From the NCBI GenBank assembly GCA_905182905.1, contig CAJJDH010000013.1, positions 1-64,000 of the forward strand: a DNA stretch of 64,000 bases. Reading direction: 5' to 3'. The notes below the pieces were generated by a model that worked only from the letters and a program-made list of their open reading frames with translations, ran no database searches and was not told the origin of the DNA. Every line of letters begins with the position of its first letter. The first letter of the stretch is position 1. Origin of the DNA: a marine gamma proteobacterium HTCC2089 (lineage in GTDB: Bacteria; Pseudomonadota; Gammaproteobacteria; Pseudomonadales; Azotimanducaceae). This document shows, one piece after another, positions 4,629-33,767 of the stretch. Both the position numbers and the translations under genes were made by a program.

Positions 4629-5246
4629 TTACAAGGGCAAATAATGGGGCCGAGCCTGGATCTTTGCCATCCAAGCTAAAATAGCCGGATAGCTGGCAAG
4701 ATCAAAGCCGCCATCTGCAGCAACATGGGTATAGGCGTACAGAGAAATATCCGCAATAGTCAGAACTTCACCAGCCAAATATGGTGTTTGACTCAGCTGC
4801 TCCTGCATAACCGCTAACGCCTTGTTACCGCCCTCTTGCTTACTCGCGTACTCGGCCTTTCGCTCTTCAGGCAAACCCAGAAAGAGGTTAATAAAACGCG
4901 CCACAGCAATATACGGCTCGTGACTATACTGCTCAAAAAACTGCCACTGCAAAACGCGCCCCCGAGCTAGTCCAGCAGCGGGTAAAAACTCAGATCCCTC
5001 GGCTAGATAGTTCAAAATGGCATTAGATTCTGACAAATAGGCCCGTTCACCCGTTGTCTCATCAGTTATCTCTAGCAGCGGGATTTTGCCATTAGGGTTT
5101 AGTTGCTTGAATTCGAAACTTTGGGTGAAACCAGACAACACATCCACCGCCTCCCACTGATAGGGCGCCTCCATAAACTCCAACAACATTGCTATTTTGT
5201 AGCAATTGCCAGACAACATATCCCCAAACACGCGATATTTATTCAA
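4629..5246 (-). CDS. Glutathione S-transferase family protein
   Basis: About 205 residues, normal GST length. The thioredoxin-fold N-domain begins NKYRVFGDMLSGNCYKIAML with a Ser near the active-site position; the cis-Pro and glutathione-binding loop is NPNGKIPLLEI, then YLSESNAILNYLAEGS. The C-terminal helical domain has TPYLAGEVLTIADISLYAY. I chose the TTG at 5246 because GAGAGGAG lies just upstream; a longer GTG start at 5300 adds residues foreign to the family and would overlap the end of the peptidase gene by 11 bp. Its role is probably detoxification or isomerisation of electrophiles. It may be co-transcribed with the upstream M2 peptidase. Confidence 0.87.
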   Translation of the reverse strand: MNKYRVFGDMLSGNCYKIAMLLEFMEAPYQWEAVDVLSGFTQSFEFKQLNPNGKIPLLEITDETTGERAYLSESNAILNYLAEGSEFLPAAGLARGRVLQWQFFEQYSHEPYIAVARFINLFLGLPEERKAEYASKQEGGNKALAVMQEQLSQTPYLAGEVLTIADISLYAYTHVAADGGFDLASYPAILAWMAKIQARPHYLPL

Positions 5247-5289
5247 CAGATTAGCTCCTCTCTTACGATGAACAAGCACTTGACGGCAA

Positions 5290-7101
5290 TCACCAACCAC
5301 ACTGCCTGTCTTTATTCTGCTCCTGCAAATAACCCATCAGGGGTTGGAAATAATCGATAATAGGCGAGGCATCCATTTCTCGTTGTCCAGTGAGCGCATA
5401 CATCGCCTCTGGCCAGGGCTGACTTGCCCCCATACTCAGCATCTGCCCAAGTTTTTCACCAGCTGCCTTGCTATCGTAAATGGAGCAGTTATGTAGCGGC
5501 CCCTCGTATCCAGCCGCTTCGCATAGCGCTTTATGGAACTGGAACTGCATAACATGGGACAGGAAGTAACGGGTATACGGCGTATTGCCAGGAATATGAT
5601 ATTTCGCACCCGGATCAAAATCTGCTTCTGTCCGCTCAACAGCTGGCGCTATACCTTGGTAACGAGTACGCAAATTCCACCATCCGGCATTGTAGCTTTC
5701 TGGGCTAATTGCTCCGGAAAACACCTGCCAACGCCACTGATCAATAAGCTTACCGAAAGGCAAAAAGGCAATCTTATCTAACGCTAATTTCATTTGCTCA
5801 TTGATGGTTGCCTGCTGACTTTGAATCACTTCCGGCACTAAGCCTTTTGCTTTGAGATAGGCTGGCGTCATAGACAAAACAATTGTGTCGCCAATGGCTT
5901 CGTGGAAACCATCATGGGCACCGCCCTTAAATAGTGGTCGCTGTTCTTTGTACATTAAGTAATAGTAAATATGGCCTAACTCGTGGTGCAGGGTCGACAA
6001 CTGTTCTTCATTGACCTCCACACACTGTTTAATGCGCGGATCGTTACCGTTGTCTAAATCCCAAGCACTGGCGTGACATACCACATCTCGGTCAGCAGGC
6101 TTGGTCAGCATGGAATTAGTCCAAAAACTATCTGGCAGTTCAGGCAGGCCTAAGGAAGTAAAAAATGCTTCGGCTGTTTGAGTCATCCGCACAGCATCAT
6201 AGTTTTGCTCAACCAACGCTTTATTCACATCTAGCGAAGCCACACCCGGATAGGGCTCTAACAAATCATAAATGTTGCCCCAAGATTGCGACCACATATT
6301 ACCCAAAAGGTGCGCGGGAATAGAACCAGTACTGGGCACTAAGTCTTCGCCATAGGTTTCGCCAAGCTGAGCACGCACATGACAATGAAGCTCTTCGTAC
6401 AGGGGTTCCACTTGATTCCACAGGCGCTCGCTTTCCTGCTCGAACTCTGCCACGCCCATGTCATAGCCACCCTTCCACAAATCACCCAAATCCTTGGCGC
6501 CCACTTCGCGCGCGCCCTCGTTCGCCAACTCTACGAAACGTTCATACATGGGGCGCATAGGTGGGGAAATTGTCCGCCATCCAGCCCAAGCATTTAGCTG
6601 CTCCGCGTAATCTCGAGATTTAGCTAAAACATTCTCTAACTCTGGCAAGGTAGAGCAGACATTAGTTTTAGGATCACAATACTTACCAGCTCCATATATG
6701 CCTTCTAGTTCAGTTGCTAAGGTAGAAAGTTCTGCGCGTTTGGCGGCATCATCAGGAGCGGGCAACGAAGAGCCACGTAATATCAGCTCAATGGCACGTG
6801 CGCTTTCAGCGTCCATCGGCAGATCCTTCAATTGCCTCGCTTGCTCGATGACCTTACTCTGAAACGCCAACTGACGCTCACCGGCTTTGGAGGCCAAAAC
6901 TGCGGTATCAGGAGTAATGTGCGTTGCTCGAACCCAATAGGCAGCGCCAGCTTCTTTAGCCAATTCCAGCGACTGGCTTTCTACGTCTTGTAAAAACTCA
7001 ACGGGGTCAGACAGTGGAGTTAATTCATCAGCAGGGGCTGGTGTTTGCTGACAGGCGGCTAGCCCTATCGTTGCTACTAGCAAAAAGAAAAAAATACGCA
7101 T
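5290..7101 (-). CDS. Peptidase M2 family (ACE-like peptidyl-dipeptidase), lipoprotein
   Basis: 603 residues, the normal length of a single-domain bacterial M2 enzyme. The N-terminus has a lipoprotein signal (hydrophobic stretch ending LAAC, Cys17). The zinc site is HHELGHIYYY around residue 373, with the third ligand in GFHEAIGDTIV about 24 residues later, as in angiotensin-converting enzyme. The family removes dipeptides from peptide C-termini; here it is probably tethered in the cell envelope for peptide feeding. ATG 7101 has an AAGAGGTGA ribosome site. The upstream gap is shared with a divergent LLM gene. Confidence 0.93.
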   Translation of the reverse strand: MRIFFFLLVATIGLAACQQTPAPADELTPLSDPVEFLQDVESQSLELAKEAGAAYWVRATHITPDTAVLASKAGERQLAFQSKVIEQARQLKDLPMDAESARAIELILRGSSLPAPDDAAKRAELSTLATELEGIYGAGKYCDPKTNVCSTLPELENVLAKSRDYAEQLNAWAGWRTISPPMRPMYERFVELANEGAREVGAKDLGDLWKGGYDMGVAEFEQESERLWNQVEPLYEELHCHVRAQLGETYGEDLVPSTGSIPAHLLGNMWSQSWGNIYDLLEPYPGVASLDVNKALVEQNYDAVRMTQTAEAFFTSLGLPELPDSFWTNSMLTKPADRDVVCHASAWDLDNGNDPRIKQCVEVNEEQLSTLHHELGHIYYYLMYKEQRPLFKGGAHDGFHEAIGDTIVLSMTPAYLKAKGLVPEVIQSQQATINEQMKLALDKIAFLPFGKLIDQWRWQVFSGAISPESYNAGWWNLRTRYQGIAPAVERTEADFDPGAKYHIPGNTPYTRYFLSHVMQFQFHKALCEAAGYEGPLHNCSIYDSKAAGEKLGQMLSMGASQPWPEAMYALTGQREMDASPIIDYFQPLMGYLQEQNKDRQCGW

Positions 7102-7457: not shown

Positions 7458-8450
7458 ATGACCGTTTTATCCGTATTAGATTTATCCCCAATTGCCGAAG
7501 GTGGCGATGCTCGCCAAGCCCTAAACAATAGTCGCTCCCTGGCACAACACACTGAGGCTGCCGGCTATCACCGTTACTGGGTCGCTGAACATCATAATAT
7601 GCGCGGTATAGCTAGCGCAGCGACTTCTGTTGTCATAAGCCACATTGCCGCCGGCACAACAAAGATCCGCGTGGGTTCTGGCGGCATTATGCTGCCAAAT
7701 CACTCGCCACTGATGGTGGCTGAACAATTTGGCACGCTAGAAGCCCTGCATCCGGGGCGCATAGACCTCGGACTTGGGCGTGCACCAGGTACTGATGGTG
7801 TCACAGCTCACGCATTACGCAGAACACTCAACAGCGACCCAAATCAATTCCCCCAAGATGTCATTGAGCTCAAAGGTTACCTTGGCGATCAAGCCAGCCC
7901 CAGCCAGCGCGTTACAGCAGTACCGGGACAAGGCAGTAATATTCCACTGTACATTCTTGGTTCAAGTTTATTTGGCGCACAACTTGCGGCAATTCTGGGC
8001 CTGCCCTTTGCCTTTGCATCGCATTTCGCACCGGAGGCAATGATGCGGGCTATCGCCTTATACCGAGCAGAATTTGAGCCATCTGAACAACTCAGCAAGC
8101 CCCACGTTATTTTGGGTTTCAATATCTGCGCCGCTGACACTGAAGACGAAGCAATGCTACTGCGCAGCTCTGGGCTGCGGGCGTTTCTGAACTTGCGCCA
8201 AGGCAAGGCTGGGCCACTACCTAAGCCTGAAGAGGATTTTGAGAACAACCTCACCGACATGGAAAAGGGCTTGATGGCTCAGGTAAGTTCCGCCGCAGCC
8301 GTGGGCACTCCTGATCAAGTAAGGGCTCAAACCGCCGAATTCCTGACAAAAACAGGCGCAGACGAACTAATTATTGTTGCGCAAATCCATGACCACGATG
8401 CGCGTTGTAAAAGCTACGAGCTGGCTTATCAAGCATGCGCCGACCTTTAG
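7458..8450 (+). CDS. LLM-class flavin-dependent oxidoreductase (group 1, luciferase-like)
   Basis: 330 residues, standard for the bacterial luciferase-like monooxygenase group 1 (YhbW/YtmO-like). Diagnostic blocks are [18 protein letters not shown] at the N-terminus, [32 protein letters not shown] and [22 protein letters not shown] barrel binding reduced FMN is expected, with O2-dependent oxidation of an unknown substrate. The C-terminal [14 protein letters not shown] and [12 protein letters not shown] are also typical. It is a single gene, followed by a strong bidirectional terminator. Confidence 0.9.
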
Positions 8451-8511
8451 GCCCCCTAAGAAGCATAGGCTAATAGGCTGGCGGATAAAAACCGCAAAAA
8501 GTAACGCAAAA

Positions 8512-8537
8512 AAAAGCCCAGATAATTCTGGGCTTTT
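8512..8537. terminator. Bidirectional rho-independent terminator
   Basis: A perfect 11-bp stem, AAAAGCCCAGA / TCTGGGCTTTT, with the four-base loop TAAT. T-runs follow on both strands. It serves the convergent LLM (ends 8450) and DUF3604 (ends 8581) genes. Confidence 0.9.
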
Positions 8538-8580
8538 GTGTTTCTGATTCGATGCTTAAAAAACCATTCTTATGAATAAC

Positions 8581-10485
8581 CTATTGAGTCAACCAAATAG
8601 GCGAGGACCAAGCGCGGTCTTGAATGGTGGCATGCATATCAGGCCTAGGTGCTACCCCTGCGGCAATAGCATCGTAGGTTGACCAGCGACAAGTTGGATT
8701 CTCAAGCACTCGTACATAGTAAAAAGCCTTTTGAGCAGGATCGTAATTTGGGTCTTGCCACACTGCGGCAAGCTCACTGTCGCCCTTGTTTGGGGTCACT
8801 GTGCAATCAGTGATATCGACTCGAGCACCATTATCACCACAGCGACCAGTCTCTGCATTGACTGCCTGACCGTCAGAGCAGGCAATATCCACTACGACTT
8901 CTTGAGTTTTACCACCTTCAACCCAACCCTTCACGATTTGCAAACGCTGCAATGGCTGGGTGTCTGGATCTTGAGATGCCCAAACGTAAAAGCTCGGACT
9001 GTTCTCACCCTGTACTGCTAAATCAGAACCCATCGGCACGCCATTGGCATAGGCTTGCTCTAGGCTATTTGTCGAGTTAAGCAAAGATTGGTCAAAATCG
9101 AACCCAGCAAAGAAACGCAATTTGATATGCGGACCACTGGTTGAGAATGTTTCCTTTCTGCGCATAGCATCATATATGGCCTCACGAGTATTCGACTCTG
9201 CCCAAACACCGGCCAATCCTGAGGCGCCCCAATATTTCGACGCTGGGTCCAGATACTCAGGGTTTGCAGGCGAAGAGGTTGGAGTTGGCACACTGCCTCT
9301 GCGATAAGGCTCAAAATCTAAAACGCCGGTTTTGCTCCAGTAATTATCTTCTTCAAAAGAGCCCGCAGCGTTATGCGTATCGGATGCGCCAATAACACCA
9401 AATTTGTAAGGGTTGGCGCCAATCTTTGACTCGATCATAAGACCATTCAAATAGGCTTCGCGCACGTAGCTGCCACTGGGCTTAGATGCAATATCCGTCG
9501 CAATGCGCAGAGGCATGATTTCAAAGTCCGCCCATTCATCGTTAGGTGAAAGCAAGGGATGGGTGTCAGAAGTACCTTTCACTTGTGTATTTTCAACCAA
9601 TGGCTCATTACGCATACGCGTTTGTGCGTACTCAACATCAATTGGCTCACCGGCCCAATTATTCATTGGGAACATCCAGCCATTGGAACCATTCGAGTTA
9701 TGGGGGATAGCCAATGCCTCGCGACCTAATGCACGTTGTTCGTCCATCCATGCCCAAAGACCTTCTGGATTTATTGAATCAAATCGACTGTACGGCTGCA
9801 GGGGCACTTCGCTGCCACGGAAAATAACGTTGCGGTGCAGGTTTTCAAATGCAGATCCGGAGCTTGTATATTCGTAGGCAATAAATGTGGTGAAGTTACC
9901 GGGGTCGTTGTGACGCTGGGCCGCCTCTATTATCTCCTGCCATGCCGAACGCGCCACACTACGATCATCTATTGGATCAACCGTGTCCGCAGATTGGCGA
10001 CGCATATGCCCAAGTACAGCAGCAAAACCCGCTTGAGACCCTTCAGGTGTGGTTGCGCCGCGGACTGCATCAGCCATTTCTTCTTCTGAATAGGGACTAT
10101 TGGCGCTGGCCAGTTCCCGCATCATACCTAGGTAAAAGGCATGATCTGAAACCGCCAGAAAATCTAACGGCTTTTTCATCTTCATCTCAAAACCACTGGC
10201 ATGTTCTATGCCTGCGCCTTTAGCAAAAAGATAAGCGTCATTGGGTGTACGGCGAGTGCCAAACAAAAAGGCGTCGAAAGATAGTTCAGTATGAATATGC
10301 GTGTCGCCAAAATAGGCGTTCTTCAGAGGGTTAACGTCAACCTTCTGGTCAGCGGGTGCAGCAACAGAAGCGGCATCACTGAGGCCGACAGCATCTACGT
10401 CCTTAGCAGTTTCCGAGCAACCCGCAAATAATAAGACCAAGGTCAAAGGCACCCATAGGCGAATAGAATTTTTCTTGTTCAACAT
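8581..10485 (-). CDS. DUF3604 domain lipoprotein (PHP-like fold)
   Basis: About 634 residues. A lipoprotein signal runs from the start to LVLLFAGCSE. The DUF3604 hallmark motifs are YFGDTHIHTELSFDA, FLAVSDHAFYLGMM and, further on, FGVIGASDTHNAAG; their Asp/His residues resemble metal ligands of PHP hydrolases. The chemistry of the family is not established, although members are frequent in marine bacteria. I prefer ATG 10485 over the in-frame ATG at 10497 because the GGGGGAG stretch precedes the former. Convergent with the LLM gene. Confidence 0.87.
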   Translation of the reverse strand: MLNKKNSIRLWVPLTLVLLFAGCSETAKDVDAVGLSDAASVAAPADQKVDVNPLKNAYFGDTHIHTELSFDAFLFGTRRTPNDAYLFAKGAGIEHASGFEMKMKKPLDFLAVSDHAFYLGMMRELASANSPYSEEEMADAVRGATTPEGSQAGFAAVLGHMRRQSADTVDPIDDRSVARSAWQEIIEAAQRHNDPGNFTTFIAYEYTSSGSAFENLHRNVIFRGSEVPLQPYSRFDSINPEGLWAWMDEQRALGREALAIPHNSNGSNGWMFPMNNWAGEPIDVEYAQTRMRNEPLVENTQVKGTSDTHPLLSPNDEWADFEIMPLRIATDIASKPSGSYVREAYLNGLMIESKIGANPYKFGVIGASDTHNAAGSFEEDNYWSKTGVLDFEPYRRGSVPTPTSSPANPEYLDPASKYWGASGLAGVWAESNTREAIYDAMRRKETFSTSGPHIKLRFFAGFDFDQSLLNSTNSLEQAYANGVPMGSDLAVQGENSPSFYVWASQDPDTQPLQRLQIVKGWVEGGKTQEVVVDIACSDGQAVNAETGRCGDNGARVDITDCTVTPNKGDSELAAVWQDPNYDPAQKAFYYVRVLENPTCRWSTYDAIAAGVAPRPDMHATIQDRAWSSPIWLTQ

Positions 10486-24176: not shown

Positions 24177-25949
24177 TTATTCCCCACCTGCACTTGCCGC
24201 AATTTGCTCCGCTTCGACCTCATCAAGAGTACGATAACGTATTGCACCAAAGAGCATTTCGTCCCATGACTGCTGCCCCCACGGCACTACGCGAGTAGCA
24301 TCTGGATTGGCTGGGTTGCGTGCTGAATTGTCCCACCAAGTTCTGTGCACAATCTCCGTCCCCGCAGGCAGCACTTTGGGCTGATCCAAAGAATACGTGG
24401 TCTGCCAGTTAAAGTCGTAACGCGGCACTGATAACAACTTTTCTTCAGTACCATCCGCATAGCGGGCCACAAACTCAGAGGCTTTGCCACGAAAATGAGC
24501 ATGAGGTAAAAGGCTATAAACCAGAATATCTTTGTCTAAAGTACGCCGTGCAAGCTCCATATGATTTGCATCCCCAGCAGGAATGCGTATGCGAGGATTC
24601 AGCAAGACCATGCTTTCCAACTCATACTCAGGCTTTTCGTTATGCAGATAAATGCCCATATAGGAAGTATCCGATGTAGCTAGGCCAGACGTGGTGTAGT
24701 GCATTTGAAATTCAATAGTCGCGTCAGCGGGCAAAAACACACCAGCATTATCTGGATAAGGTGAGCCTTCGGCACCGGGTACATACCCGCCTAAGCCACC
24801 GCCCGTACCGCGCTTAAGTCGACCCGCGCGACGACCTTCAGTCTCCAACTCACCAAAGCTGGTAATTACATGGTGCAATACCGCCCGATCACCAGGAATA
24901 ATTTCAGTGGCTTTAACCCAAACATCTCTGTCTAAAGGGTTCTCAACCATCTTGTATTTGTAGTCTACAACACCGCTGGCAGGGATATTTTCAGTAGGTA
25001 TTTCGACAATAACATCGGGTTCACCCATAGCCCATTTAGGCCAACTGCGACGTTGCTCCGCCAACAAATCTGCACCTTCGCCACGGGGTGCGCCAGCCTC
25101 TATCCAATGCACTAAGGTCCTGATCTCTGCATTTGACAACGAGCGGTTGTTGCTGAATTCACCAAAGTGCGGGTCAGCGTGCCACGGCGGCATACGCTGA
25201 GTGCGCACAACTTCGCGAATCATCAATGAGAAACCGCGCACAACATTATAGTCATTCATAGCAAATGGACCGATACCCCCGGCTCTGTGACAGGTCACAC
25301 AGTTTTCCGCAAGCATTGGCGCAATGGTGTCTGCATAAGAAATATTTGCGTGGGCTGCGCGATTAGCAATCTCGGGATAATCAACGGCACAATTTTGTTC
25401 AACAGTGGTTGTATCTGATGTCATCACAGGTGACTGGCCCGCAACCAAACTGGCAACCGCTTGACCTGCACTCTGAGCGCTACCGCGATAGGCCACCTGC
25501 CAATTATTGGGGTTTATAACTAAAGTATCGCCAGCGTTCATAGCGCCAAGAGACTCACCAATAATTTGGGTAGAGTCCATTAACACTGGTGCCGCAATAC
25601 TAGTTGCAGAAATAGAGCTTTGAATGGCTGCACGATCATCACGCAGATCTGAATTGATTAGCATAAATTCTACGCCTTGGTCGGCGTAACTGGCTTGCAT
25701 AGAAGCCAGCGCCTCCACACTTTGCTGCATAGATTGGCAGCTACTATTATGCGCCATCAACACCAAGGCTTTGGTATCAGCAAAATAGTAAAGCTCGTGG
25801 GAGCTACCCGCTGCATCTAACAAACGAAAGTTATCTACCCGCTCGCCTGAAGCAAGAGCAAATGAAGACGTTGCAAAGAGCATTGTCGAACACAAAGACA
25901 GCAACGCGGTGAAAAACCGCGTTATAAAAGAAACAGATAGTAAGCGCAT
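24177..25949 (-). CDS. Redoxin + cytochrome c + copper type II monooxygenase-like fusion, secreted
   Basis: About 590 residues from ATG 25949 (preceded by GGAGGGG), with a signal peptide ending ATSSFALASG. Domain order: thioredoxin/redoxin-like (~40-170), a single c-type haem site CVTCH (~217-221) with a likely Met ligand in RMPPWHADP, then a domain with the copper-ligand pattern of peptidylglycine/dopamine-type monooxygenases: VLHHVITSF (~359), QMHYTT (~417), PHAHFRGK (~483/485) and WDEMLFG (~565). The set HH, H, H-x-H, M matches both CuH and CuM sites. It probably acts in the periplasm. Substrate unknown; adjacent to a PhyH gene. Confidence 0.85.
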   Translation of the reverse strand: MRLLSVSFITRFFTALLSLCSTMLFATSSFALASGERVDNFRLLDAAGSSHELYYFADTKALVLMAHNSSCQSMQQSVEALASMQASYADQGVEFMLINSDLRDDRAAIQSSISATSIAAPVLMDSTQIIGESLGAMNAGDTLVINPNNWQVAYRGSAQSAGQAVASLVAGQSPVMTSDTTTVEQNCAVDYPEIANRAAHANISYADTIAPMLAENCVTCHRAGGIGPFAMNDYNVVRGFSLMIREVVRTQRMPPWHADPHFGEFSNNRSLSNAEIRTLVHWIEAGAPRGEGADLLAEQRRSWPKWAMGEPDVIVEIPTENIPASGVVDYKYKMVENPLDRDVWVKATEIIPGDRAVLHHVITSFGELETEGRRAGRLKRGTGGGLGGYVPGAEGSPYPDNAGVFLPADATIEFQMHYTTSGLATSDTSYMGIYLHNEKPEYELESMVLLNPRIRIPAGDANHMELARRTLDKDILVYSLLPHAHFRGKASEFVARYADGTEEKLLSVPRYDFNWQTTYSLDQPKVLPAGTEIVHRTWWDNSARNPANPDATRVVPWGQQSWDEMLFGAIRYRTLDEVEAEQIAASAGGE

Positions 25950-26027: not shown

Positions 26028-27185
26028 CTAAATGCCTAGATCCTCATTGTTATAATCTTTGATATCTAGCTTTGCTTGAGCATCCCAACGATAGCCTAAG
26101 TAGCTTAGTGGTTGATATACATAAGGCGTTTCATCAGGAAAGCGCTGGCTGCGGGCATCAATACCATAGCTGATCACTCGTGCACGATGATCAACCCGCT
26201 CAGCGGTATATTGTTCCGGATCGTTATGTACACCACCACCAAATACATCCACCACACTGGCCCTTCGGTGAAACCCCATATTGATAGTTACGCGCATATC
26301 ATCGCTGGTATTGGCAAACGAGCCGTGAATAGCTTGGCGGTTACATATCGCCACATCTCCAGGCGCACAAATAACAGGCACGGCATCAGGCAACCGGTCG
26401 GATCCTACCTTGTCGACCATGGCCTTTATGTCTACTTTCCCTAGCACATGAGAACCCGGAACAACCCACAAACCATTGGCAGCATTACAGCCATAAAGCT
26501 GGGCCATAAAGTTAAAACCATGGGTGTGCGCATCTAAATCAGGGCTTTGCCAGTGGGTAAATGCATCTTGGTGCCAAGCTACAGAACCGCCCAAACGCGG
26601 GTGCTTAACCCAAACGGCTTCATTAAAAGGCACAAAGTCATCGCCGTTAATCCCAGCGGCAACGCGCAACAAGTCTGGATGACCATAAGCACGCAAACAG
26701 GCTTCAGAAAATTGCAGTGAGCCTAGGACCAATTGCAAAACGTGTTTTGGCGCACCATCAGGTGCTTCGGGTTCAATCATTTTTGCTGGATGACGACCAT
26801 TTGAATGCGCTGTCCCCCCCAATGGATCACTTAACGGCCTTACCCAAGACAGCGAACGCGACTGACAGTCGTGGCCCAATGCAGGCCGACCTTGAGCATC
26901 AACATCAGCGTCTTTAGTTACAGGACTACGTTCCCACATGTCTTGAACATCGGCCTCAAGATCTGCTAGTTCTGCCTCACCCATGACGCCGGTTAAAATA
27001 TAAAACCCATACTTTGTATAAGCCTGCAAAATATCAGGATGTAATTCACCGCTCTGGGTAAAGCGCACGGGACCACGATTATCCATAGCCAAAGCACGCT
27101 CGGTGCCCTCTTGCTGATAGGCCTGCATAGCCTCATCGTGCTCGCCATAGTTGGTAGCGGGTGCATTGTAAATCTGAAAAGCCAC
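26028..27185 (-). CDS. Phytanoyl-CoA dioxygenase (PhyH) family protein
   Basis: 385 residues; the start is a GTG at 27185. The Fe(II)/2-oxoglutarate site is seen as GGSVAWHQDAFTHW (H-x-D) and, downstream, CNRQAIHGSFANTS (distal His) with a following Arg. The family hydroxylates acyl-CoA or small lipophilic substrates. It is transcribed in the same direction as, and 78 bp upstream of, the copper-monooxygenase fusion, so the two may be co-expressed. A length of 385 is at the upper end for the family. Confidence 0.88.
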   Translation of the reverse strand: MAFQIYNAPATNYGEHDEAMQAYQQEGTERALAMDNRGPVRFTQSGELHPDILQAYTKYGFYILTGVMGEAELADLEADVQDMWERSPVTKDADVDAQGRPALGHDCQSRSLSWVRPLSDPLGGTAHSNGRHPAKMIEPEAPDGAPKHVLQLVLGSLQFSEACLRAYGHPDLLRVAAGINGDDFVPFNEAVWVKHPRLGGSVAWHQDAFTHWQSPDLDAHTHGFNFMAQLYGCNAANGLWVVPGSHVLGKVDIKAMVDKVGSDRLPDAVPVICAPGDVAICNRQAIHGSFANTSDDMRVTINMGFHRRASVVDVFGGGVHNDPEQYTAERVDHRARVISYGIDARSQRFPDETPYVYQPLSYLGYRWDAQAKLDIKDYNNEDLGI

Positions 27186-29912: not shown

Positions 29913-30404
29913 CTATTCAGGCATTCGACTGGTCAAACTAAACGACCACCAATGATCGGCTCTAGTTGTCCCCAGACCTCTACCCACTTTTTGCCCTCGA
30001 CTGCGCCAAGCAATGTCTAACTCCTGCGCATCCAAAACTCGATTGATAGCAACCGGATAAACTCGACCGCTAATGCCGATATAGCCATTGGGATTGCGCA
30101 ATGCCGTGGAGGACCAAAATTTCCCCTCGCAACGCGAACAACTGACATAAAGTTTGCCGCTGTCAGACATACAGTTAAGGTTTATTGACCAAGGAATAAT
30201 GGCGTTTACCTGGACTTGGCAGAGAGGGTCGTCATTGGCAAAAGACCAATCAGTAACAGGTTTGCTGACAAGCTCACCTTGTATTGGACCACCCGGCAAG
30301 CGGTCACAGGGGCAGCTAAACCAAAATACTAGTCCGCCAACCAAAAGGCTTAGCACAGCAAGTGGCGCTACAACACGAGTGAGTACTTTTTTGATTCCAT
30401 TCAT
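29913..30404 (-). CDS. Uncharacterised membrane-anchored protein
   Basis: 163 residues. One N-terminal membrane helix (VVAPLAVLSLLVGGLVFWF) is followed by a soluble domain that I do not recognise with certainty. It contains four cysteines in CMSDSGKLYVSCSRCEGKFW and the CPCD pair after the helix, and is rich in Trp. The pattern PNGYIGISGRVYPVAINRVL suggests a small beta-barrel, perhaps of the split-barrel type, but that is weak. ATG 30404 follows a GGAG. The soluble part probably faces the periplasm. Confidence 0.7.
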   Translation of the reverse strand: MNGIKKVLTRVVAPLAVLSLLVGGLVFWFSCPCDRLPGGPIQGELVSKPVTDWSFANDDPLCQVQVNAIIPWSINLNCMSDSGKLYVSCSRCEGKFWSSTALRNPNGYIGISGRVYPVAINRVLDAQELDIAWRSRGQKVGRGLGTTRADHWWSFSLTSRMPE

Positions 30405-32128: not shown

Positions 32129-32938
32129 ATGCCACACGATTTAGAGCAACTTAGAGTCACCATGCAGAATATTCTCGACACCCTTTGGGCCTTACACCAA
32201 AACCCGGACTTGGACCCAACACCCTTACGTGAAGCTAGTGAACTCAGCGCCGACGAGGGGCAACTTGTGCAGCTGCAGCTATTGGAGCGCTGGCTAGAGC
32301 AGGGGGAAGAATTAGCTGGCTGGAAAATTGGCATGACTTCTGGAGAATCGCGCAATGCATTAGGCGATGGAATTCGTCCATCTGGTTTTGTTTTACGCAG
32401 TCGCACGCTTCACAGTGGCGCGAGTATTCCGCGCAAAGACTTATATAAAGGTGGCGTTGAGAATGAGCTATGTTTTGTAATGGCAGATTATTTGGGTGAA
32501 GGGGCCACCCCTGCGCTGGCTAAGGGCGCTATCGCCGGTGTAACTGCGGCTTTTGAAATCAATCAAAAACGCCTACCGCCGGGCTGCTCGGCAGGCCTTC
32601 GGGTAGCCGACAACTTATCAAACTGGGGCATTGTTGTGGGCGCCACAGTTCCTCTAGCCAATACCACTGCAGATTTAGCTGAACTTGAAGTTGCGCTCTA
32701 TGGTGATACCGGGAAAGGCGAGCAATTGGTGGAAAGCGTGCCTAGCCAAGGACATATCGACGATCACTTTGAATCGTTGAGCATTTTAGCCAATCGCTTA
32801 CACCGCTTTGGCCATACACTGGCTCCGAATCAATACATTATTACCGGTGCTTATGGCAAAACGCCTTTTGCACCTGGGAATTTCCGCGGTGATTTCAGCG
32901 TTGGCATTGGCGGCGTTAGGGTCGAAATTACTGCTTAG
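32129..32938 (+). CDS. 2-keto-4-pentenoate hydratase-like (FAH/MhpD superfamily)
   Basis: 269 residues. Recognised by LAGWKIGMTSGESRNALG, IRPSGFVLRSRTLH, GGVENELCFVMADYLG (the metal-binding Glu-x-Glu region), VTAAFEINQKR and DNLSNWGIVVGATVPL. The family (MhpD, TesE, DmpH, fumarylacetoacetate hydrolase fold) hydrates 2-oxopent-4-enoates or decarboxylates related oxo-acids at the end of meta-cleavage pathways. Next to an ACMSD-like amidohydrolase this hints at aromatic or steroid ring catabolism. The start could also be the Met at 32162. Confidence 0.87.
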   Translation: MPHDLEQLRVTMQNILDTLWALHQNPDLDPTPLREASELSADEGQLVQLQLLERWLEQGEELAGWKIGMTSGESRNALGDGIRPSGFVLRSRTLHSGASIPRKDLYKGGVENELCFVMADYLGEGATPALAKGAIAGVTAAFEINQKRLPPGCSAGLRVADNLSNWGIVVGATVPLANTTADLAELEVALYGDTGKGEQLVESVPSQGHIDDHFESLSILANRLHRFGHTLAPNQYIITGAYGKTPFAPGNFRGDFSVGIGGVRVEITA

Positions 32939-33167: not shown

Positions 33168-33767
33168 ATGGCCGAAGAAAGCAATACACGCACTAGACCG
33201 GAACCTAGCATGTTCTCAATGATGTCCCGAGACATTGGTATCGCCCTTATCGCTCTTTCGGTTTGGGCTGCAGCTGATACTTGGTACCTACTTTCTGGCC
33301 TTTGGTTTGCGCAACTTTTGAGCATTGGTGATGCCATTTTTGTCGGCTATGTGCTTGGGGCCTTATTCCACGAATGGGGTCACTACTCTGGCGCAAAATT
33401 ATCCGGCGCCCAAGCACCAAGGGTAAAGCCCAAAGGGATTTCCTTGTTCCGTTTTAACTTTGATATGTCAGTGAACGACCAGCGTCAATTTCACTGGATG
33501 AGTTTTGGCGGCTGGGTGATGCATTGGGCGCTACTGCTGCTATTAGTCATTGCTATTCCTTTTGACAGCCTTGGGCGCATTGCCTTAGTCAGCTCAGTAT
33601 TTGGCTTCATCGTTTACGCCACATTTATCGAAACTGGTATTTTGCGCCAGACTTTAAGCGGCGCTGACCCGAAAGAGACTTTAAATCAGCTAACCGCAAA
33701 AACATTTCAGCAGGCAACCATCGCGGGCACCGTGGGTGGGTTATTTGCTTTGGCTGCATTAAGCTAA
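33168..33767 (+). CDS. Integral membrane protein with HEWGH (HEXXH) motif
   Basis: 199 residues with about four membrane segments. The segment GYVLGALFHEWGHYSGAKL (HEWGH at 68-72) is a HEXXH zinc-metalloprotease motif at the end of a membrane helix, as in site-2 (M50) proteases. The usual second M50 motif (N-x-x-P-x-x-x-x-D-G) is not visible, so catalysis is uncertain. ATG 33168 follows GGGAGAGG. The next gene on the same strand is an NrtS-like protein 66 bp downstream. Confidence 0.75.
   Translation: MAEESNTRTRPEPSMFSMMSRDIGIALIALSVWAAADTWYLLSGLWFAQLLSIGDAIFVGYVLGALFHEWGHYSGAKLSGAQAPRVKPKGISLFRFNFDMSVNDQRQFHWMSFGGWVMHWALLLLLVIAIPFDSLGRIALVSSVFGFIVYATFIETGILRQTLSGADPKETLNQLTAKTFQQATIAGTVGGLFALAALS

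Follow-up and report, generated by a model that had tools for sequence, protein, structure and literature searches.

A thioredoxin-like, cytochrome c and PHM-like dicopper fusion protein in a marine gammaproteobacterium and its bacterial relatives

By what route electrons arrive at the coppers of PHM and DBH, two per enzyme and about 11 Å apart, and how they are shared between them is a long-standing question; for CuH, one of the two sites, the usual electron source is chemical ascorbate. Animal relatives of this dicopper core make amidated hormones and noradrenaline. The locus described here raises the question in a bacterial setting: does one exported polypeptide carry both such a core and its own supply of electrons? 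The window (the whole 64,000-nucleotide stretch analyzed, positions 1 to 64,000 of contig CAJJDH010000013.1 in assembly GCA_905182905.1 of marine gamma proteobacterium HTCC2089) contains a gene that a preliminary description, made from the sequence alone, took to encode a secreted fusion of a thioredoxin-like domain, a haem domain and a peptidylglycine-type copper monooxygenase, which could feed electrons to copper internally instead of using ascorbate.

The dicopper core of the fusion protein

The features of the locus, with the evidence for each, are:

24177..25949, minus strand: whole gene, thioredoxin-like / cytochrome c / PHM-like fusion of 590 aa (ORF, domain scans, model)
25851..25949, minus strand: signal peptide, Sec type, residues 1-33 (read by eye; helix 2-28 in the model; hydrophobic N-termini in relatives)
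25380..25850, minus strand: thioredoxin/peroxiredoxin-like domain, residues 34-190 (PF00578, profile, fold)
25737..25739, minus strand: Cys71, at the active-site position of the thioredoxin fold, no CXXC (kept or lost jointly with Cys187)
25389..25391, minus strand: Cys187, partner of Cys71 (aligned with the GC(S/N/T)IKW cysteine of 2ywi/3u5r/2cvb)
25038..25358, minus strand: cytochrome c domain, residues 198-304 (CXXCH and distal Met in 119/119 homologues; Pfam, profile, fold)
25287..25301, minus strand: haem attachment motif CVTCH, residues 217-221 (sequence; invariant)
25191..25193, minus strand: Met253, probable sixth haem ligand, in RMPPW (invariant, 119/119)
24222..25025, minus strand: PHM/DBH-like dicopper core, residues 309-576 (fold search)
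24870..24875, minus strand: CuH ligands His359 and His360, PHM H107 and H108 (invariant, 119/119)
24699..24701, minus strand: CuH ligand His417, PHM H172 (invariant, 119/119)
24495..24503, minus strand: CuM ligands His483-x-His485, PHM H242 and H244 (invariant, 119/119)
24402..24404, minus strand: Gln516, equivalent of PHM Q272 (118/119, the remainder a gap; mapped via the alignment of relative L114 to rat PHM)
24255..24257, minus strand: CuM ligand Met565, PHM M314, in the motif DEM (118/119, the exception being a contig that ends before the Met)
26028..27185, minus strand: PhyH-family dioxygenase, 78 bases upstream of the fusion gene (PF05721, E 6.3e-15)

The fusion gene is a genuine open reading frame, running from an ATG at 25949 to a stop at 24177, with a ribosome-binding-like GGAGGGG about 12 bases 5' of the ATG. 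By eye, the signal peptide ends at ...SSFALA-SGE. Pfam recognized the N-terminal domain above cut-off (AhpC-TSA, PF00578, E 1.9e-8), while Cytochrome_CBB3 (E 0.006) and Cu2_monoox_C (PF03712, E 0.04) scored below it; Pfam alone is therefore insufficient to prove the earlier claim for the haem and copper domains. The predicted structure and the family alignment are more informative. An AlphaFold model built on 38 homologues, from which haem and copper were omitted, has a mean pLDDT of 87.7 and a pTM of 0.83. Its residues 309-576 match PHM 55-327 with a VIA Z of 19-20 (rmsd about 3 Å over ~250 residues, 15-16% identity) and DBH with a VIA Z of 20.3, and a Foldseek comparison of the copper-core model with solved PHM/DBH structures reached E-values down to 2.6e-14. 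The homologue alignment comprises 119 non-identical sequences, with identity down to about 37%, plus two-domain outliers. Predicted fold and family evidence together settle the nature of the copper core despite its weak Pfam score.

In PHM, CuH is held by H107, H108 and H172 and CuM by H242, H244 and M314 (PMC6123673); the DBH ligands are H262, H263 and H333 for CuH and H412, H414 and M487 for CuM (PMC4846438). The spacing of H359/H360/H417 and of H483/H485/M565 parallels that in both enzymes, and the invariance of these ligands, judged on the aligned sequences, is far beyond chance. Searching the PDB directly with a profile of the window family's copper core gave no match. The same profile does retrieve L114 (E 4.5e-24), a two-domain cytochrome-PHM protein without the thioredoxin domain, which clears both Pfam copper-monooxygenase cut-offs and matches rat PHM (E 3e-7) with the six copper ligands and Q272 aligned. 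L114 thus bridges the window family to rat PHM, and the window protein is a PHM homologue and not a look-alike. The preliminary description is upheld as regards export, the three domains and the full set of copper ligands (HH, H, H-x-H, M).

Substrate-binding positions are less conserved. The PHM residues that hold the C-terminal carboxylate of the peptide, which we take to be R240, N316 and Y318, correspond in the fusion protein to L481 (L/M/T/V among the 119 homologues), F567 (F/I/Y) and A569 (A/Y/Q/S), making peptidyl-glycine unlikely as the substrate. This divergence is also what might be expected of a non-oxygenase, a protein with the PHM scaffold put to use in copper binding or electron transfer, but we consider such a protein very improbable given that both complete copper sites are invariant and that Gln516 is so nearly so. 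The PHM counterpart of this glutamine, Q272, is a member of the water network needed for peptide-substrate binding (PMC6123673). Q415, equivalent to PHM Q170, is retained in 92 of the 119 homologues.

With PHM (rat, 1PHM/1OPM) the fusion protein shares the double jelly-roll dicopper core, equivalents of all six ligands, the invariant Q272 equivalent and export. It differs in its added N-terminal cytochrome c and thioredoxin-like domains, in its low identity (about 16%) and in having no PAL lyase domain, which is absent from the fusion protein and from the neighboring genes scanned. DBH (human, 4ZEL) likewise has an extra domain N-terminal to its dicopper core, there a DOMON, of a type that has been described as binding haem or sugar (PMC4846438). 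The added domain of the fusion protein, in contrast, is by its sequence a cytochrome with covalent c-haem, and the DBH dimerisation domain is absent.

The cytochrome and thioredoxin-like domains

The haem site noted in the preliminary description stands at the sequence level: C217, C220 and H221 of the CVTCH motif, together with Met253, are kept in 119/119 homologues, bar one ambiguous base. Pfam cytochrome matches were found in 34 of 38 family members. The closest match of the domain, by sequence and by fold alike, is the c-haem domain of hydrazine synthase alpha (5C2V; profile E 2.2e-4, fold Z 5.0), a weak similarity to a different enzyme. When the domain was modelled alone, all ten VIA rows with Z ≥2 came from cytochrome c proteins or complexes, with Z no higher than 5.0, and a Foldseek search of the PDB returned nothing below E 1. 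The genome also encodes the c-haem maturation protein CcmE (E 4.8e-34).

The thioredoxin-like domain is closest to the stand-alone proteins SMc02350 (3U5R), 2YWI and 2CVB, including the positions of Cys71 and Cys187. Its profile matches 2ywi and 3u5r (E 6e-16 and 8e-16, respectively), and residues 33-197 of the model have a fold Z of about 19 to 3u5r, 2ywo, 2ywi and 2cvb, with ResA within about 17-19. Unlike the fusion family, those proteins have no haem or copper domains, and the family has lost the cysteine pair in nearly half of its members. The fusion protein has no CXXC active site: N-S-S-C71-Q-S-M provides a single cysteine, and C187 lies far from it. Both cysteines are present in 62 homologues and neither in about 50, and a full-length protein never has one alone. 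Parsimony on the tree places about five changes in the history of the pair, and the cysteine-free relatives include one large clade of 47 (support 0.76). Sampled members of this clade carry a C-x-C inside the copper core (residues 439/441 of the L039 ORF, with equivalents in L043, L048, L054, L058, L064 and L072), which the window protein does not have.

Joint loss of the pair where haem and copper ligands are kept indicates that the two cysteines act as a unit yet are dispensable. A thioredoxin domain acting as obligatory reductant is rejected on this ground, about 50 relatives having kept the fold with both cysteines gone, and the redoxin is unlikely to be a needed part of the electron path. 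From the family alignment, we infer that the thioredoxin fold is accessory and that electrons enter via the haem. The same domain invites another reading, in which the copper core uses H2O2 as a peroxygenase and any peroxide from uncoupled turnover is dealt with by the haem together with the peroxiredoxin-like domain. H2O2 can stand in for O2 and external electrons in PHM (PMC6123673); moreover, the nearest relatives of the domain are peroxiredoxin-like/TlpA-like proteins, and the window protein retains C71/C187. The relatives without the pair nevertheless keep everything else, and the invariant Met haem ligand favors electron transfer over peroxidase chemistry, so that we regard peroxide handling as quite unlikely. 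An internal supply of electrons through the haem is instead the best explanation of the joint conservation of haem and copper ligands in every relative, including those without the thioredoxin domain.

Family distribution and gene neighborhood

The fusion protein is not singular but one of a widespread bacterial family. When about 85,000 species genomes were scanned, 131 relatives were confirmed, for the most part from Gammaproteobacteria; two of the best 79 of these 131 belong to Chthoniobacter-type Verrucomicrobiota, and the three-domain architecture recurs in both groups. Within the window's own genus, all 36 sampled genomes have 1-5 copies; in the order's other families, matches were at most to the thioredoxin domain. 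Broad samples are sparsely populated (class, 6/369 genomes; phylum, 3/299; Verrucomicrobiota, 10/195). The window's genome has matches in four places, one a contig-end fragment and one cut off. The 4.3 Mb genome of isolate 005FR1, source of L024, encodes seven different three-domain haem-copper proteins (L119, L122, L125, L127-L130), which suggests substrate diversification. Elsewhere, divergent copies of the fusion gene occur as pairs, adjacent or close together on one strand (L040:6001-9700, L079:3749-7632, L083:1457-6963).

A search of about 490 genomes of the two phyla with PF03712, a model independent of the family profile, found 11 places, and the proteins at all 11 have the cytochrome domain; a copper core without it was never found in these searches. 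Haem and copper core do occur without the thioredoxin domain (L108, L114, L137, L138, L139). Some relatives have further modules: EF-hands before the copper core in L124, and Ig-like domains (L131) or TPR repeats (L137) after it. L116 has a weak EF-hand match at its end. Such free mixing of domains (EF-hand, Ig-like, TPR) would be compatible with a sensory, structural or docking role for the haem and the thioredoxin fold, with small molecules reducing copper as in animal PHM; the tethered cytochrome of the Ralstonia CuNiR, for example, also controls substrate access (PMC13324648). We nonetheless judge this arrangement unlikely, since the cytochrome domain accompanies every copper core found and its four haem ligands never vary.

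The preliminary description had also pointed to the PhyH dioxygenase beside the fusion gene. That gene does adjoin it on the same strand, within an island of CoA ligase, CoA transferase, enoyl-CoA hydratase, luciferase-like monooxygenase, SDR and amidohydrolase genes, but it is not a conserved partner: only three of nine syntenic orthologues have PhyH (L005, L010, L031), and the other six have an MFS-like transporter gene in its place (L006-L009, L011, L012). We thus reject PhyH as functional partner, and the association is incidental or at most lineage-specific. The transporter-like gene (L006:4442-5872 and its equivalents in the other five; MFS, GPH type by eye) lies directly 5' of the fusion gene and may encode a substrate carrier.

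In another gammaproteobacterial clade, the gene before the fusion gene is inositol-monophosphatase-like, and downstream, on the opposite strand, there is a gene for an RND-like exporter, an arrangement conserved in about 20 genomes (L038-L062, L071, L072, L082, around 4900-5800 and 7800-10200). As candidate partners, the inositol-phosphatase-like, RND-like exporter, UbiA-like and FAD oxidase genes were set aside, being kept only inside one other clade, and the neighborhoods yielded no conserved neighbor pointing to the donor or the substrate. Three window ORFs (29913-30404, 32129-32938 and 33168-33767) have no Pfam match; syntenic relatives of the first occur within the genus.

Proposed electron path and wider meaning

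On balance, we favor the view, with somewhat better than even confidence, that the fusion protein is a periplasmic two-copper hydroxylase that belongs to the PHM/DBH superfamily, is fed by haem and carries a module of its own for electron entry. The haem would take single electrons from the respiratory chain, by way of a donor that is either quinol-linked or a periplasmic cytochrome c, and pass them to CuH, from which they would move to CuM, where O2 would be activated. The enzyme would then hydroxylate an aliphatic or benzylic C-H bond in a small substrate that is either exported or imported. The thioredoxin-like domain may serve in docking or as an accessory, and would be redox-active in some members only. 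In this family, haem probably takes the place of vitamin C as the source of electrons. The substrate is probably not peptidyl-glycine and probably differs between paralogues.

Several known systems provide parallels for parts of this path. CuH is the electron-transfer site of DBH (PMC4846438). The c-type cytochrome domain CjX183 reduces the copper of a bacterial LPMO, with less H2O2 than when ascorbate is used (PMC8981238), and copper in the three-domain Ralstonia CuNiR receives its electrons from a tethered cytochrome c (PMC13324648). In these cases (Cellvibrio Cbp2D X183 with LPMO; the Ralstonia pickettii CuNiR) a c-type cytochrome domain supplies a copper enzyme, as proposed here, but the copper folds are unrelated to that of the fusion protein, and the cytochrome is on a separate protein (LPMO) or C-terminal (CuNiR). 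No description of a bacterial PHM fused to a cytochrome was found in the full-text literature searched, which comes largely from outside subscription journals. Fold, ligands and cytochrome are of known kinds, whereas their combination with PHM is apparently undescribed, even though genes for it are plentiful in public genomes.

More tentatively, and with considerable doubt, the bacterial PHM/DBH members might constitute a class of periplasmic dicopper hydroxylases that are driven by haem and linked to respiration, and in which cytochrome c, not ascorbate, was the original electron source. The ascorbate dependence of animals and algae would then be derived, having followed loss of the cytochrome domain. 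If an optically readable haem does lie beside CuH, electron entry would become directly measurable and the protein would offer a scaffold for a self-sufficient C-H hydroxylase. The proposal would further suggest what chemistry is likely for these proteins, of which the literature searched gives no description, and it would bear on the origin of the enzymes with which animals make hormones and neurotransmitters.
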